Assembly (NCBI GenBank): GCA_947302125.1
Contig: CAMYUL010000003.1
Location: 32,580 to 96,579, forward strand
Reading direction: 5' to 3'
DNA length: 64,000 nucleotides
Source: an uncultured Candidatus Saccharibacteria bacterium
Lineage (GTDB): Bacteria; Patescibacteriota; Saccharimonadia; Saccharimonadales; Saccharimonadaceae
The position numbers were made by a program, and so were the translations under genes. Every line of letters begins with the position of its first letter. The first letter of the stretch is position 1. Positions 4,784-55,837 of the stretch are shown in pieces. The notes under the pieces were generated by a model that worked only from the letters and a program-made list of their open reading frames with translations, searched no databases and was not told the DNA's origin.

Positions 4784-4963
4784 AGTTTAATAGTTTATAA
4801 AATTCGTCAGTGCATATCAAGGCTGAATTGAAGTCAAAATGACAAAGTTTAATAGTTTATGAAATTCGTCAGTGCATATCAAGGCTGAATTGAAGTCAAA
4901 ATGACAATGAAATGTCATTTTGACAATTCACCTTGCACTGACAATTTTATAAACTATTAAACT
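4784..4963 (-). repeat. Long imperfect hairpin, family A copy 1, with tandem 62-base long arm
   Basis: Two tandem 62-base long arms (4784-4845 and 4846-4907, one mismatch) are followed by a short loop and a 51-base short arm (4913-4963). The short arm's reverse complement matches the long arm except for extra unpaired bases in the long arm around TATCAAGGCTGAATTGAAG. The short arm lies 30 bases past the stop of the glycosyltransferase gene, so in that transcript the order is short arm, loop, long arm, repeated long arm. There is no U-run, so it is not a textbook intrinsic terminator. Confidence 0.85.
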
Positions 4964-4993
4964 TATTACTTACTATTTACTACTTATCACTTA

Positions 4994-6670
4994 CTACTTC
5001 TTAACAACTTTCCGTGTAACATCAAAATTCTCCATATAATGCGCCGTCATAAGCCTCGTCTGCGCATAAAACGCCACAAACGACTGATAGATAATTGCAA
5101 CTAGTGGCGAGAAAATCCACTGCAACACCATCCCCACAGACTTCATCTTGTTATATCGCTTTGGTCTTGGCGGAAGCATCCTTAGCGACATAAAGATCGT
5201 CACCATCAAGCCGACCATCGCACCAAGCTGAATCCACGATACAGTATTTGGCAAATTATAGGTCAGAAGATCCCTGGTCTGCAAGTTAAATAGCCTTGGA
5301 ATCCAGCCACCAAATGCCACCATCGGCGACATCGCCGCAAGCGTTACGTGTCCGTCTAACAGCCGCCAAAACTTCGGGAACAAGATCCAAAGCGACATTC
5401 TGCGTCTCTCTGGATTAATCATCCTATCACCTACATAAGCCACATCACTCGCGCCATAGTCCCACCGCCTTAGCTGCACAAATTGCGCCTTCAAGGTCTT
5501 ACAGAACGTCTCTGCAATCACTGCATCTTGATACATTGGCACCTTAATCGACAGCACCTCGTACTTGCCCCGGAAATGAAACAGCGACCGCCAATATTGA
5601 TGTCCATCTTCCACAATCGTCCTCTTACTCCAGAAATCCATTTCCGAAAGCGCATCCATCGGCTGTGAGTGCGAAGCAAAATTTCGAAGCAGATGTGGCC
5701 TCTTCACGTTAATCACGTTGAAGAACGAATTAGATACCGCAATCACACGCATTGGCGCCGAAGCATCCCAAATATTATTCATAAATAGCGACACCGGCTG
5801 AAATGCCATTCGCTTACGATCTTCATGCACAATGTATTCATATGCCACATAGTCCAAATATTTCGGGCTCATTCTATTGTCCGAATCAAGCGACGTCACC
5901 ACCACATGTTCTAATGGAATATGCTTTTTGAACAAATATTTTTCCAAAAACTTACCCGCATAAGTCAAATTCGGCCCCTTGCCCTTAATTTCCTTCGGCA
6001 ATCCATCCGGATGCTTCACCGCCATAAAATCATAGAATGTCCCCTTAAATTTCTCTTGCAGCTCTAGCGCCCTCTTCTCCATATCCGGACCGCCCCGTTC
6101 CTCATATCCGAGTACAAAAATTATTCGCTCATTCGGAAATTCCGTATCACGCACCGCCTCAACCGTTGGCAACAGTGTCTCCATTCCCTCGTCATACGCC
6201 ACCATAATCACTGCATGATAGATTTTATCCGGATCCGGAAAATCTTTTGGCGACACCGACATCTCGCGCAAATTCTCGATATGCTCGTCAATATTAAATT
6301 CTTTCTCTACCGGTTTCTTCTTTTTTACTAGGCTAGCCGCAGTTTTTACGCCAATTTCTCCTCTGAGCGTCTCAAAATTCCCGTGCGGATCCTTAAGATC
6401 GGCTAATCTCTGGTGCCAATCCACTTTCATTGCCCGCTGAATCTCGTTATACCCCTGTACTGTCCTTACTGCCACCCCCACAGCCTTCACCAAGGTAATT
6501 GTAATAATGATTAACAGATAAATCGCCCCAAGCGTTGGCGACACAATCGACAATACTATCAACAACAAAATCATCGCATACGACAATGCTCCCGGCAAAA
6601 TTTCAAAAAACCGGTACGTTGGCGTCCGTTTTCCAAGTGGTAGCTCTAAATCATCATCCTTCTTGATCAT
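4994..6670 (-). CDS. Membrane-bound processive family 2 glycosyltransferase
   Basis: The protein has 558 residues. There are two N-terminal membrane segments (about 24-66), a cytoplasmic GT2 domain, and about three C-terminal membrane segments (about 440-540). Catalytic signatures of processive GT2 enzymes are visible: SLDSDNRMSPKYLDY (DxD-type metal/nucleotide site), VEDGHQYWRS (ED region) and QLRRW (QxxRW). These features place it near cellulose/hyaluronan synthase-like enzymes. The sugar and product are unknown. Upstream lie a small membrane protein and the cps control genes, so a role in making or modifying surface polysaccharide is likely. Its 3' end abuts a long hairpin element. Confidence 0.85.
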   Translation of the reverse strand: MIKKDDDLELPLGKRTPTYRFFEILPGALSYAMILLLIVLSIVSPTLGAIYLLIIITITLVKAVGVAVRTVQGYNEIQRAMKVDWHQRLADLKDPHGNFETLRGEIGVKTAASLVKKKKPVEKEFNIDEHIENLREMSVSPKDFPDPDKIYHAVIMVAYDEGMETLLPTVEAVRDTEFPNERIIFVLGYEERGGPDMEKRALELQEKFKGTFYDFMAVKHPDGLPKEIKGKGPNLTYAGKFLEKYLFKKHIPLEHVVVTSLDSDNRMSPKYLDYVAYEYIVHEDRKRMAFQPVSLFMNNIWDASAPMRVIAVSNSFFNVINVKRPHLLRNFASHSQPMDALSEMDFWSKRTIVEDGHQYWRSLFHFRGKYEVLSIKVPMYQDAVIAETFCKTLKAQFVQLRRWDYGASDVAYVGDRMINPERRRMSLWILFPKFWRLLDGHVTLAAMSPMVAFGGWIPRLFNLQTRDLLTYNLPNTVSWIQLGAMVGLMVTIFMSLRMLPPRPKRYNKMKSVGMVLQWIFSPLVAIIYQSFVAFYAQTRLMTAHYMENFDVTRKVVKK

Positions 6671-9501: not shown

Positions 9502-9624
9502 AAATTAGCCGTGAATCATAAAAATGTCAATGCATATCAAGGCTGAATTGAAGTCAAAATGACAATGAAATGTCATTTTGACAATTCACCTTGCATTGAC
9601 ATTTTTATGTGAACGGCTAATTTT
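9502..9624 (-). repeat. Long imperfect hairpin, family A copy 2, with compensatory change and different outer stem
   Basis: The core is the same as at 4.8 kb, but the stem reads GTCAATGCA/TGCATTGAC instead of GTCAGTGCA/TGCACTGAC, a compensated base pair. The outer stem is unrelated in sequence (ATTAGCCGT/ACGGCTAAT plus ATAAAAATG/CATTTTTAT-like) yet still self-complementary. The short arm ends 12 bases from the rmlB stop. There is only one long arm here. Confidence 0.85.
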
Positions 9625-25470: not shown

Positions 25471-25627
25471 GTCAGTGCATATCAAGGCTGAATTGAAGTT
25501 GTAGTGAAAGTTTAATAGTTTATGAAATTCGTCAGTGCATATCAAGGCTGAATTGAAGTCAAAATGACAACTTTAGTGTCATTTTGACAATTCACCTTGC
25601 ACTGACAATTTTATAAACTATTAAACT
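25471..25627 (-). repeat. Long imperfect hairpin, family A copy 3, with truncated extra long arm
   Basis: The 62-base long arm at 25509-25570 and the 51-base short arm at 25577-25627 are identical to those at 4.8 kb, but the loop (CTTTAG) differs. A truncated additional long arm (25471-25499) precedes. The short arm ends 14 bases from the pilC stop, and the element separates convergent tRNA-Asp and pilC. Confidence 0.85.
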
Positions 25628-25641
25628 GTCAAATTTATAGA

Positions 25642-33761: not shown

Positions 33762-34397
33762 TCAAGAGATTTTGCTAATTTTTAACCAGTAAAAACGCTC
33801 GACATTGCCATTTTTTCCACTTAGCTCATTATCATGCTTGGCAACAGTCAAAAAACCATTCTTTTTTAGCCAATTCTCAAACCCGCGGACAATTTCTCTC
33901 CGCATTTTTTCGTTCTTCACTACCCCTTTGTTTAACTGTTCTGGCCTTGCCTCAAACTGCGGTTTTAGCATCACTAAAAAATCCGTATCTTTCGACGCTA
34001 GATATTTCTTCGCATGCGCCAACACTTTCTTAAGACTCACAAACGACACATCCGCGACAATAACATCAGGAATTAGGCCTAGGAAGACGCATTTGCCCGT
34101 AGGGCAAGTCTCACTAGGCTTAATTCCTGATGTTGTTGTATTAAAGATATCGGTCTTCTCATGCAGCTCCACTCGCGGATCAAACCTAAGCGGTGCCTTC
34201 ATCTGATTAGTCCCCTTCTCTACAGCAATCACCTTTTCTGCCCCTGCAGATAGAGCATACTCTGTAAACCCACCAGTAGACGATCCAATATCCAGTACTG
34301 TTTTTCCTTTAAAATCAAAAGAAAAAGCCTGCGTCGCCCCCGCAAGCTTATTCTCTGCTCTAGATACGAACAATTTAGTTCTTTCCTTGTCTTTCAC
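33762..34397 (-). CDS. TlyA-like rRNA methyltransferase without S4 domain
   Basis: A 211-residue FtsJ-fold methyltransferase resembling TlyA (ribose methylation of 16S/23S rRNA). It begins at the KLFVSRAENKL motif that in TlyA follows the S4 domain, so S4 is absent. VLDIGSSTGGFTEYAL is the SAM site, ADVSFVSLKKVL and MLKPQFEA are family stretches, and a C-terminal GNVERFYWL follows. A palindrome of about 83 bases in frame encodes an extra loop with ETCPTGKC between the core strands. The GTG start overlaps the efp end by 23 bases; no strong ribosome site is seen, so the start is uncertain. Confidence 0.8.
   Translation of the reverse strand: MKDKERTKLFVSRAENKLAGATQAFSFDFKGKTVLDIGSSTGGFTEYALSAGAEKVIAVEKGTNQMKAPLRFDPRVELHEKTDIFNTTTSGIKPSETCPTGKCVFLGLIPDVIVADVSFVSLKKVLAHAKKYLASKDTDFLVMLKPQFEARPEQLNKGVVKNEKMRREIVRGFENWLKKNGFLTVAKHDNELSGKNGNVERFYWLKISKIS
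34057..34139 (-). repeat. In-frame palindromic element inside the tlyA-like gene
   Basis: Arms 34057-34082 and 34114-34139 are reverse complements over 26 bases with two mismatches. They enclose a second stem TTGCCC/GGGCAA with a GTA loop, itself bounded by GAC/GTC. The reading frame stays open. The encoded loop is longer than the corresponding NIR-to-DVSF segment of ordinary TlyA, so this looks like an inserted, tolerated palindrome. Confidence 0.8.
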
Positions 34398-34941
34398 GAT
34401 AGGCTCTAGTCTCAGTATCTACAGATACAACATCACCCTCTTTAATGAATGCTGGCACCTTAATTACTACGCCAGTTTCAAGGGTTGCATCTTTTGTTAC
34501 TGAAGTAGAAGTATCACCCTTCACTGCATTCTCAGTATAGGTAACTCTGAGCCACAAGTTCTTTGGTAAGACTAAGTTAATTGCTGTACCATTGTAGAAC
34601 TGGATCTCCATTTCATCACCATCTTTCATGAAATCAGCCATATCGCCAACCATGTCAGATGATAATTCGTACTGCTCAAAAGATGCTGGATCCATGAAGT
34701 AAAAAGCTGAATCGTCCTTATACAAGTACTGCACCTTCTTCGTAGTAACTTCCGCTGGCTCAATCTTTTCCTGCCCCTTAAAAGTCTTTGGCAAAAGCGC
34801 ACCGGTAATCAAATTTTTTACCTTTACGTTTACAATTGAACCACCACGTCCCATTACTTTCTGAGAGTAATCAACTACTTTGTATGGTTGACCATCCAAA
34901 GTAATCAGCACATTCTTTTTCAAATCTGTTGGTCCGTACAT
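34375..34941 (-). CDS. efp: Translation elongation factor P with Arg at the tip position
   Basis: A 188-residue three-domain EF-P that relieves ribosome stalling at polyproline. It is recognised from DLKKNVLITLDGQPYKVVDYSQ, the EYLYKDD-like middle region and the C-terminal GDVVSVDTETRAYRER. The modifiable loop reads VMGRGGS rather than PGKG, with Arg at residue 32. In some proteobacteria Arg32 is rhamnosylated by EarP using dTDP-rhamnose; this genome makes that donor, but no EarP is in the window. AAGGAG precedes the start. Confidence 0.93.
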   Translation of the reverse strand: MYGPTDLKKNVLITLDGQPYKVVDYSQKVMGRGGSIVNVKVKNLITGALLPKTFKGQEKIEPAEVTTKKVQYLYKDDSAFYFMDPASFEQYELSSDMVGDMADFMKDGDEMEIQFYNGTAINLVLPKNLWLRVTYTENAVKGDTSTSVTKDATLETGVVIKVPAFIKEGDVVSVDTETRAYRERQGKN

Positions 34942-45083: not shown

Positions 45084-45231
45084 GTACGAAATATTAGATT
45101 TAAGCTCTATAAACATATCGGATTTGAACTTTAAAAATGTATATTCCTGACGCGAGCGAAGCGAGCCAGTGTATGACATTTTTAAAGTTCAAGTCCTAGA
45201 GCTTAAAACTAATATAAGTACTTATTTTTTA
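45075..45231 (-). repeat. Long imperfect hairpin between mscL and pnp
   Basis: The outer stem AAAAAATAAGTAC pairs with GTACTTATTTTTT. Inner stems TTTAAGCTCTA/TAGAGCTTAAA and TTGAACTTTAAAAATGT/ACATTTTTAAAGTTCAA follow. The tip is CTGACGCGAGCGAAGCGAGC. The mscL-side arm carries about 11 extra unpaired bases (TAAACATATCG). The other arm ends 7 bases from the pnp stop. A/T runs on both sides would let it act as a bidirectional terminator. Confidence 0.8.
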
Positions 45232-53960: not shown

Positions 53961-54149
53961 GAAAGCAAGTAATAAATAAGGACTAACCCAAAGCAAGCAA
54001 AACGAATACCAAGCGCCAAAGAAAGCAAGTAATAAATAAATTCTAAGGGATAATGAGATTTAGACCAGATTTGTGAGTGTCAAAATTACAATTTTTGTAA
54101 TTTTGACTACGAACAAGTCCATGCCTTAGAATTTATTTATTACTTACTT
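53961..54149 (-). repeat. Long imperfect hairpin downstream of the ABC transporter gene
   Basis: A 54021-54048 arm starting GAAAGCAAGTAATAAATAA pairs with 54123-54149. The inner tip GTCAAAATTACAA/TTGTAATTTTGAC pairs again, and the distal arm carries about 14 extra bases between the two stems. Part of the distal arm recurs 60 bases further out (53961-53979). The proximal arm runs up to the ABC gene's last codons (stop at 54152). Confidence 0.75.
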
Positions 54150-54151
54150 TC

Positions 54152-55837
54152 TTACTTACTTGCTTTCTTATTTACTACTTCTTGTTTATTACTAACTTTT
54201 CTGCAACTCACCACCTTCCCCCTCTCCATCTTCACAATCCTATCCGCCATATTTTTAATCTCATCCTCATGTGTTACCAAAATAATGGTATGATCTTGTT
54301 TCAAATCCGCAAGAATCCCCGCCAGTCCAGGTATCTCCTGCACACCCTCACTTTGCACACCGTCAAACAACAGCACTTCTGCTCGCGACAACACCGCTCG
54401 GGCCACCGCCAGCAGTTGTTTTTCTCCCGCGCCCATTACATCGTTAGTCACCACCGTATCATACCCGTACGGAAGTTGCATAATAAAATCGTGTAGCCCC
54501 ACTCGCTTGCAAGCCGCAATTTGGTGCTTCTGGTTTTTGTCAACCAGCGCCAAATTCTCCCGAACTGTCATTTCGAGCACAAACGGATTCTCAAACACGC
54601 CCGACACATTCGTCCGATACGCCCGTTTACTATAGTTATATATGTTCTCATTATCAACCAAGATCTGCCCAGACGTTACTCGTGAAAACCTAAATATCAA
54701 GTTCATCAGCGACGTTTTCCCTGCGCCTTTCGGACCCACGATTGCCGTAATCTCGTTTGGATACGCCTTAAACGACACCCTTCTAAGGATCCATTTGCCC
54801 TTATCCTTAAAGCTCACGTTCTGGAACTCTACTAGGCCCGCAATGTAATCATTGTCCAGCTCGCCAAATTCAACCTCAGATTTCTGCGTAAAGCTGAGTA
54901 CCTTCAGAATCCTCTTGATGCGCACGCTATATTCAGAAATCGAAACTAGTGTGTCTCGCATCTCGTCCGTACAGCTTACCATCTGCTCGTAATAAGAAAC
55001 TAACAGCACCAAGATGCCAATCGTCATCTGCCCCTCAAGCACCAAATATCCCATAAACACGTACAGGGCAATTTTCCCAACATTCGGGATCCACGGATCC
55101 GTTACAAAAGCCCTCGCTCTTGCGTTCCTTCTTTTCTTGTATTCTTGCACCCAGCGCATCCCAACGTGTTCATATTTTTTGTTCAGCTCCGGCATAAAAT
55201 CCATCGCCCGAATCTGCTTCGAGTTCGCAATCTCTTGGTTTAGAATATCTGCCGCCCTATCTTCGTATTTCCTTGAGCTATTGTAATACTTTGCATATTT
55301 TCGAGAGTTCTTATCCATCAACGCAAAATAAATTACGTCAATTAATGTTGCCGCAATCGCCACCCATATATTGTTAATCGCAAATACCACAAATATCGCT
55401 AGCAACCGCAGAACTTTCGAAAACATCGCCGCCGTACAATCAACCGCGTCCACCACCCATCTCACATCATCTGTGCAAGTTGCAATTATCTTGCCCTTTG
55501 ACACGTCCTCAAAAATCGCATCATTATTAATAATGTGCTCCATCAATTTTTTCTGAATGTGGATATGATAGTATGCAGCTAAATCTCTATACACCGACCA
55601 GTCCCACATTCTTGGCAAATAATACGCCGCAAAGAACACTATATATAATCCAGCCCATAGCCAGACCTGCATAATATCGCCGCCCTCTGTTAAGATATTG
55701 ATAATTTGCGCCGTTGCTATTGGTGGCAATAGCCAAGCAAAGCTAAACAACGTTTGTGCGACAAAAGACATTACCACTAGGGATTTCTTACCCTTTGTTA
55801 TCTTCATAACATCTTTTAGTGTATCAATATAGATCAT
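54152..55837 (-). CDS. ABC transporter (fused membrane and ATPase domains) with altered catalytic motifs
   Basis: 561 residues. Six membrane segments (about 20-310) precede the nucleotide-binding domain. Walker A is VGPKGAGKTSL and the signature is MGAGEKQLLAVARA in place of LSGGQ. Walker B reads VLLFDGVQ, so the catalytic Glu after Asp is Gly. The Q-loop position reads FENPF, with Glu for Gln. The H-loop His is present (VTHEDE). The usual SALD D-loop is not seen. Hydrolysis may be slow, or a partner subunit may supply the second site. Substrate unknown. Confidence 0.85.
   Translation of the reverse strand: MIYIDTLKDVMKITKGKKSLVVMSFVAQTLFSFAWLLPPIATAQIINILTEGGDIMQVWLWAGLYIVFFAAYYLPRMWDWSVYRDLAAYYHIHIQKKLMEHIINNDAIFEDVSKGKIIATCTDDVRWVVDAVDCTAAMFSKVLRLLAIFVVFAINNIWVAIAATLIDVIYFALMDKNSRKYAKYYNSSRKYEDRAADILNQEIANSKQIRAMDFMPELNKKYEHVGMRWVQEYKKRRNARARAFVTDPWIPNVGKIALYVFMGYLVLEGQMTIGILVLLVSYYEQMVSCTDEMRDTLVSISEYSVRIKRILKVLSFTQKSEVEFGELDNDYIAGLVEFQNVSFKDKGKWILRRVSFKAYPNEITAIVGPKGAGKTSLMNLIFRFSRVTSGQILVDNENIYNYSKRAYRTNVSGVFENPFVLEMTVRENLALVDKNQKHQIAACKRVGLHDFIMQLPYGYDTVVTNDVMGAGEKQLLAVARAVLSRAEVLLFDGVQSEGVQEIPGLAGILADLKQDHTIILVTHEDEIKNMADRIVKMERGKVVSCRKVSNKQEVVNKKASK

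Follow-up and report, generated by a model that had tools for sequence, protein, structure and literature searches.

An in-frame palindromic insertion in a Saccharibacteria tlyA-like gene and its likeness to core-sharing palindromes of CPR bacteria and Bifidobacterium

Rickettsia palindromic elements (RPEs; Ogata et al. 2000, 2002; reviewed in PMC2229807) are dispersed palindromes of about 100 bp that lie between genes, in RNA genes and, in frame, within conserved protein genes; the products are apparently functional and what moves the elements is unknown. In-frame palindromic insertion has so far been documented mainly in, and deemed peculiar to, Rickettsia and its relatives. For coding palindromes in mitochondria, correction of one arm by the other through template switching has been discussed (PMC6649704). 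Our literature searches, which covered open-licence papers only, found no description of palindromic elements in Saccharibacteria, CPR bacteria or Bifidobacterium. Here we analyse a palindrome in a 64,000-nucleotide stretch of DNA (the window) from the draft genome of an uncultured Candidatus Saccharibacteria bacterium (GCA_947302125.1, contig CAMYUL010000003.1).

The palindrome lies in a tlyA-like gene for an rRNA methyltransferase of the FtsJ fold (33762–34397, minus strand; 211 residues, GTG start). The GTG start overlaps the 3' end of an upstream EF-P-like open reading frame (34375–34941), and the encoded protein is without the N-terminal S4-type region, the TIGR00478 family model matching from position 52 on. 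A sequence-only reading had proposed that a two-level palindrome is inserted in frame in this gene, and this was borne out. The insert is 83 bp long, occupies exactly 34057–34139 on the minus strand (residues 87–114, the TTTSGIKPSETCPTGKCVFLGLIPDVIV region) and is free of stop codons. Its 32-nt arms (34057–34088 and 34108–34139) form an inverted repeat that is 88% complementary with a spacing of 19 nt, and the second level is an inner TTGCCC-TAC-GGGCAA hairpin (34093–34107). Folded as DNA, the palindrome reaches a minimum energy of −31.9 kcal/mol, whereas 200 shuffles give −9.85 ± 2.48 kcal/mol and none was as good (z −8.9); the 673-kb genome holds 38 comparable hairpins versus none in three dinucleotide shuffles. 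That the tlyA palindrome exceeds chance expectation is confirmed.

An alignment of TlyA from relatives shows what the insert adds. From the EKTDIF strand to the DVSF motif most short forms have 13 residues (minimum 12) and the window protein has 30; the loop that the insert had been said to add is therefore real, at about 17 residues more than the 13-residue loop of the shortest relatives. The loop is missing in most orthologues, so the objection that it might be universal fails. In the coding direction, the outer part of the second arm (34057–34088) traverses the conserved codons for PDVIV that are native to the gene. The first arm (34108–34139), which encodes TTTSGIKPSE and is absent from most orthologues, is across TTTSGIKP an inverted copy of those codons. 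The arms stand in the same relation in another species, G021, with PDVV as the native segment.

Within the genus, eight species have strong palindromes at this site, with DNA folds of about −27 to −43 kcal/mol: the window genome, G001, G005, G007, G018, G021, G025 and G034. The majority of relatives lack one. Their arms vary by species, the core is found in both orientations and at least two core families are represented: G001, G007, G018 and G034 share GACTTGGCC-n-GGCCCGGAGCG, or a version of it, as their inner sequence, G005 carries the core in the opposite orientation, and G021 and G025 appear, as judged by eye, to share another core. Other relatives have loops of intermediate length with weak or no pairing, which we infer are possibly decayed inserts. 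The closest empty sites among the nearest relatives are only about 74% identical, so insertion itself was not directly observed.

The nearest solved structures are those of TlyA, in which the loop is shorter at the insert point. The TlyA fold is retained in an AlphaFold2 model based on 28 homologues (mean pLDDT 87.5; best PDB match 5ks2, TM 0.80), in which confidence is low only at residues 91–100 inside the insert and at the N and C termini. This prediction fits a tolerated surface loop and says nothing on activity. Translation through the insert is inferred solely from conservation of the frame, from which peptides including DLARAARSVSEGHA-containing ones would be expected.

It had been remarked that a comparable element in CPR bacteria would be notable, and palindromes sharing a core were found in the genus, in other CPR lineages and also in Bifidobacterium. 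The family core, TAA-GACTTGGCC-nnAGC-GGCCCGGAGCG, is flanked by locus-specific complementary arms, such that a conserved core hairpin of about 25 nt and an asymmetric internal loop (5' GTAAGACTT / 3' CGGAGCG) lie within a long stem. The exact core is present in 20 of 60 genomes of the genus at up to ten copies each, with none for the reversed control, and a scan of GTDB genomes found the core in at least 111 stretches. Hosts among the matches listed are Saccharibacteria, Kaiserbacteria, Adlerbacteria, Nomurabacteria, Peregrinibacteria, Parcubacteria and many Bifidobacterium species; 21 Bifidobacterium genomes, selected for having a core match, contain 1–16 exact cores each (control, 0). Nearly all copies sit between complementary arms peculiar to their locus, and five core matches without convincing arms (L129, L205, L213, L216 and L217) were dropped as chance. 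Copies are found in intergenic regions, in a 23S rRNA gene and in frame within conserved protein genes, in both orientations.

The rRNA copy lies in a variable helix of the 23S gene (L097; genome G005, contig C17, reverse strand 1466–1554). Bifidobacterium cores (L361–L367) often form divergent pairs, minus then plus, 139–304 bp apart, with arms that differ between the members. At one locus (L172, reverse strand, about 5463–5546) one arm and half of the core are tandemly duplicated (TAAGACTTGGGCTAACGAGCCGAAAGGTATC...), perhaps a trace of repeated or failed insertion.

The window element has the architecture of this family, a partly diverged core with an internal loop inside complementary, locus-specific arms. 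The stretch matching the core (34088–34114) reads GTGAGACTTGCCCTACGGGCAAATGCG against GTAAGACTTGGCCTAGCGGCCCGGAGCG, and the inner hairpin departs from the family consensus TTGGCC..GGCC by a compensated, paired G/C change. When a covariance model built from 33 elements, all from other organisms, was run against the whole window genome, the tlyA palindrome ranked first (34066–34129, minus strand, 19.7 bits, E 0.06), followed by one stemless fragment (E 3.2); the model picks only the tlyA palindrome among the 38 long hairpins. The core match is weak and partial, and its E value of 0.06 is roughly calibrated. We assign the element to the core family because it comes first among the 38 hairpins, contains the AGACTTG motif and shows the paired inner-stem change. 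It is the sole copy of its kind in the genome, and its exact DNA occurs once. A genome search with the arms, the check that had been proposed for related copies, matched only the element itself, because copies have only the core in common. The same model finds matches in just 5 of 287 genomes across the phylum; the distribution is therefore patchy.

Insertion in frame extends beyond tlyA. For twelve element-bearing open reading frames, the stretches before and after the insert both align with proteins of the window genome, the inserts giving peptides such as CSAEHKDLARAARSVSEGHA and, from the opposite strand, ACPSDTLRAAQAKSSRSVEHT, and in a TsaD-looking protein G007 and G069 have oppositely oriented cores at one site. 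Drawing irrespective of frame from 222 distinct elements, we obtained 33 with both flanks matching one window-genome region. The frame is kept in 27 of these, including cases from Kaiserbacteria, Adlerbacteria and Parcubacteria, where one third would be expected (p 1.4e-8). The 23S rRNA gene accounts for one of the six exceptions; the other five, which were not individually checked, may span gene borders.

The window genome has further in-frame palindromes in TatD (contig C5, 44895–44974), an RsmD-like methyltransferase (contig C10, 17573–17693), a TrwB/TraG-like ATPase and a methyltransferase-like protein. A second hotspot is TatD, where 13 of 30 members of the genus have strong palindromes between HP and VAIGEVGLD and many relatives vary in the loop at this site. 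Several of these palindromes have another core in common (GGAGCGCGGCAGCGCGAG ... CCCGTGGCGACGGG ...), which occurs either way round; some arms extend into native codons, for LVA in G018 and G026 and for HPDEAD in the window genome. At least three further families, their cores constant and their arms varying, are found among the intergenic hairpins. Three intergenic palindromes in the window (4845–4964, 9517–9609 and 25505–25631) have the core AAGGCTGAATTGAAGTCAAAATGACA...TTCACCTT between different arms, with further copies elsewhere in the genome; a fourth (54019–54153), with the core ATAATGAGATTTAGACCAGATTTGTGAGTGT ... CTACGAACAAGTCC, belongs to another family of at least seven genome copies, each with its own arms; and a third repeated family is represented by GGATTTGAACTTTAAAAATGT... 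at 45120–45196, with GCGAGCGAAGCGAGC in the loop.

The arms of the core family covary. In 74 aligned elements, 90% of cells at the 14 core-adjacent arm positions are standard pairs, as against 44% with the partners shuffled, and 13 of these positions show all four Watson–Crick pair types. The CPR subtype shows two-sided changes at all 21 arm pairs and a covariation score of 0.784, compared with 0.186 ± 0.017 for shuffled and 0.16–0.22 for slid partners. G.T mismatches outnumber A.C mismatches in the outer arms by 43 to 15; this excess suggests that folding takes place in the core strand, although strand-biased mutation is also possible.

At one Bifidobacterium intergenic site the element is present in 12 species with paired arm changes, the core is inverted between the arms in two more, and ten other species have just a short spacer. 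In B. callitrichos and B. rousetti (L141 and L199), identical arms at one site enclose an inverted core. Genome G067 has nine copies of a version of about 140 bp, with common ancestral arms, differing flanks and paired differences that reach the ends; no consistent direct repeat was seen at these copies, and no exact empty site was available for comparison. These dispersed, near-identical G067 copies with different flanks show mobility. The paired changes at the Bifidobacterium site and in the G067 copies mean that intergenic arms also change in concert, for which arm-to-arm correction by template switching is, by inference, the simplest account.

The sequence-only reading had likened the tlyA insert to RPEs. 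That likeness stands as regards how the elements behave: like RPEs they occur in frame in conserved protein genes (translation not having been shown), between genes and in RNA genes. It does not make them RPEs, for which 12-bp terminal inverted repeats are listed (PMC2229807); the elements here have a conserved apical core, locus-specific covarying arms and both orientations, with several core families sharing hotspots. Nor are its hosts Rickettsia or relatives, being CPR bacteria and Bifidobacterium among the matches listed, although absence from Rickettsia is unproven. The best reading is that the elements work like RPEs, yet form a distinct family.

Other described systems match in part. 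In the coding palindromes of Nematomorpha (PMC6649704), too, both arms encode residues and change in concert, and template switching has been proposed; those palindromes are, however, mitochondrial, have no common mobile core reported, and encode conserved residues in both arms, whereas here one arm is added. REP/RAYT repeats (GTAG-tagged, PMC3733652) are likewise small, many-copy palindromes that are sometimes intragenic, and the divergent Bifidobacterium pairs resemble REP doublets, but arms of the core family are not conserved between copies. A RAYT-type (Y1) transposase domain was found in just 2 of 80 genomes of the genus and in neither of the core-rich G007 and G067, and for want of co-occurrence with cores a RAYT/Y1 transposase is disfavoured as the mobiliser. 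Bacterial MITEs (Correia/NEMIS, ERIC, RUP; PMC2229807) are similar in their non-autonomous size, inverted repeats and some in-frame fusions, and differ in that the core-family arms change at each locus; neither a parent transposon nor a clear direct duplication of the target was found for core-family elements. TIGR arrays occur in CPR bacteria, some with palindromic units (PMC12045711), and were rejected since core-family elements are solitary and dispersed, with no 9-nt spacer layout seen. Integron attC sites are also palindromes of conserved structure and variable sequence; in the core family, conservation lies at the tip instead. Carriage by phage was rejected as well, there being just two IMG/VR matches, identical around the core and armless, which we read as chance.

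Taken as a whole, the evidence is best explained if a small mobile palindrome, not autonomous, has a copy here that is tolerated in frame, and we regard this as likely. The core would be the part recognised for spreading, which is inferred. On settling in a gene, one arm would be, or become, an inverted copy of adjacent host DNA, either through fold-back or template-switch synthesis at insertion or through later arm-to-arm correction; which of these applies is undecided. Surviving insertions would be those that keep the frame in a tolerant surface loop, the peptide being tolerated rather than used, and on this view TlyA and TatD have tolerant sites of this kind, which more than one core family has struck, and repeatedly.

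The locus could instead record a single fold-back event, in which a polymerase switched template and copied the tlyA PDVIV region in inverted form, with no mobile element involved and the likeness to the core due to chance. The pairing, as arms, of a native PDVIV coding stretch with its own inverted copy, the single genome copy and the weak core match are all as this account would have them. It does not explain the palindromes at the same site in seven other species, several with an exact or near-exact core, nor why AGACTTG and GCG are correctly placed in the window element beside a paired inner-stem change, nor why the covariance model selects the tlyA palindrome alone out of 38 long hairpins, and we consider it improbable. 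The covariation of the arms and the predominance of G.T over A.C mismatches on the core strand (43 versus 15) would also suit a selected regulatory hairpin in the tlyA mRNA that is no insert at all. Most orthologues lack the hairpin, however, and the core recurs within genes unrelated to one another, in intergenic DNA and in rRNA, and it may point either way with respect to the gene. Rfam covariance models gave only sub-threshold matches of microRNA precursors to the long hairpins; with no Rfam family, a known non-coding RNA was rejected, and we hold the regulatory reading to be very unlikely. An artefact of assembly or amplification hardly needs to be entertained: inverted repeats do arise as amplification chimeras and the genome is a draft (13 contigs, 88.6% complete), but the arms are diverged and covarying, the frame is kept and isolate Bifidobacterium genomes show the identical architecture.

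Beyond the preferred reading of a tolerated mobile palindrome, we raise tentatively, and with more doubt than conviction, the possibility of a new class of mobile element. In such a class only the short core would be mobile, the inverted repeats would be rewritten from target DNA at or after insertion, giving an inverted rather than a direct target duplication, and movement would need no transposase of its own, relying on a conserved host activity. Neither a transposase nor any other mover was found for core-family elements. If elements of this class exist, this way of moving would let one core cross phyla and occupy essential genes in frame.

The core-palindrome group is widespread and apparently undescribed. 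With it, in-frame palindromic insertion becomes a frequent feature of a second group of tiny, host-dependent genomes unrelated to the first, in which the same tolerant sites have been hit time and again and by members of more than one core family. Arms that covary and are specific to their locus point to a way of inserting elements, or of maintaining arms, for which ordinary transposition offers no explanation, and because the exact core is also present in culturable Bifidobacterium, the mechanism is testable. In reduced genomes, in-frame palindromes are a source of new protein loops.
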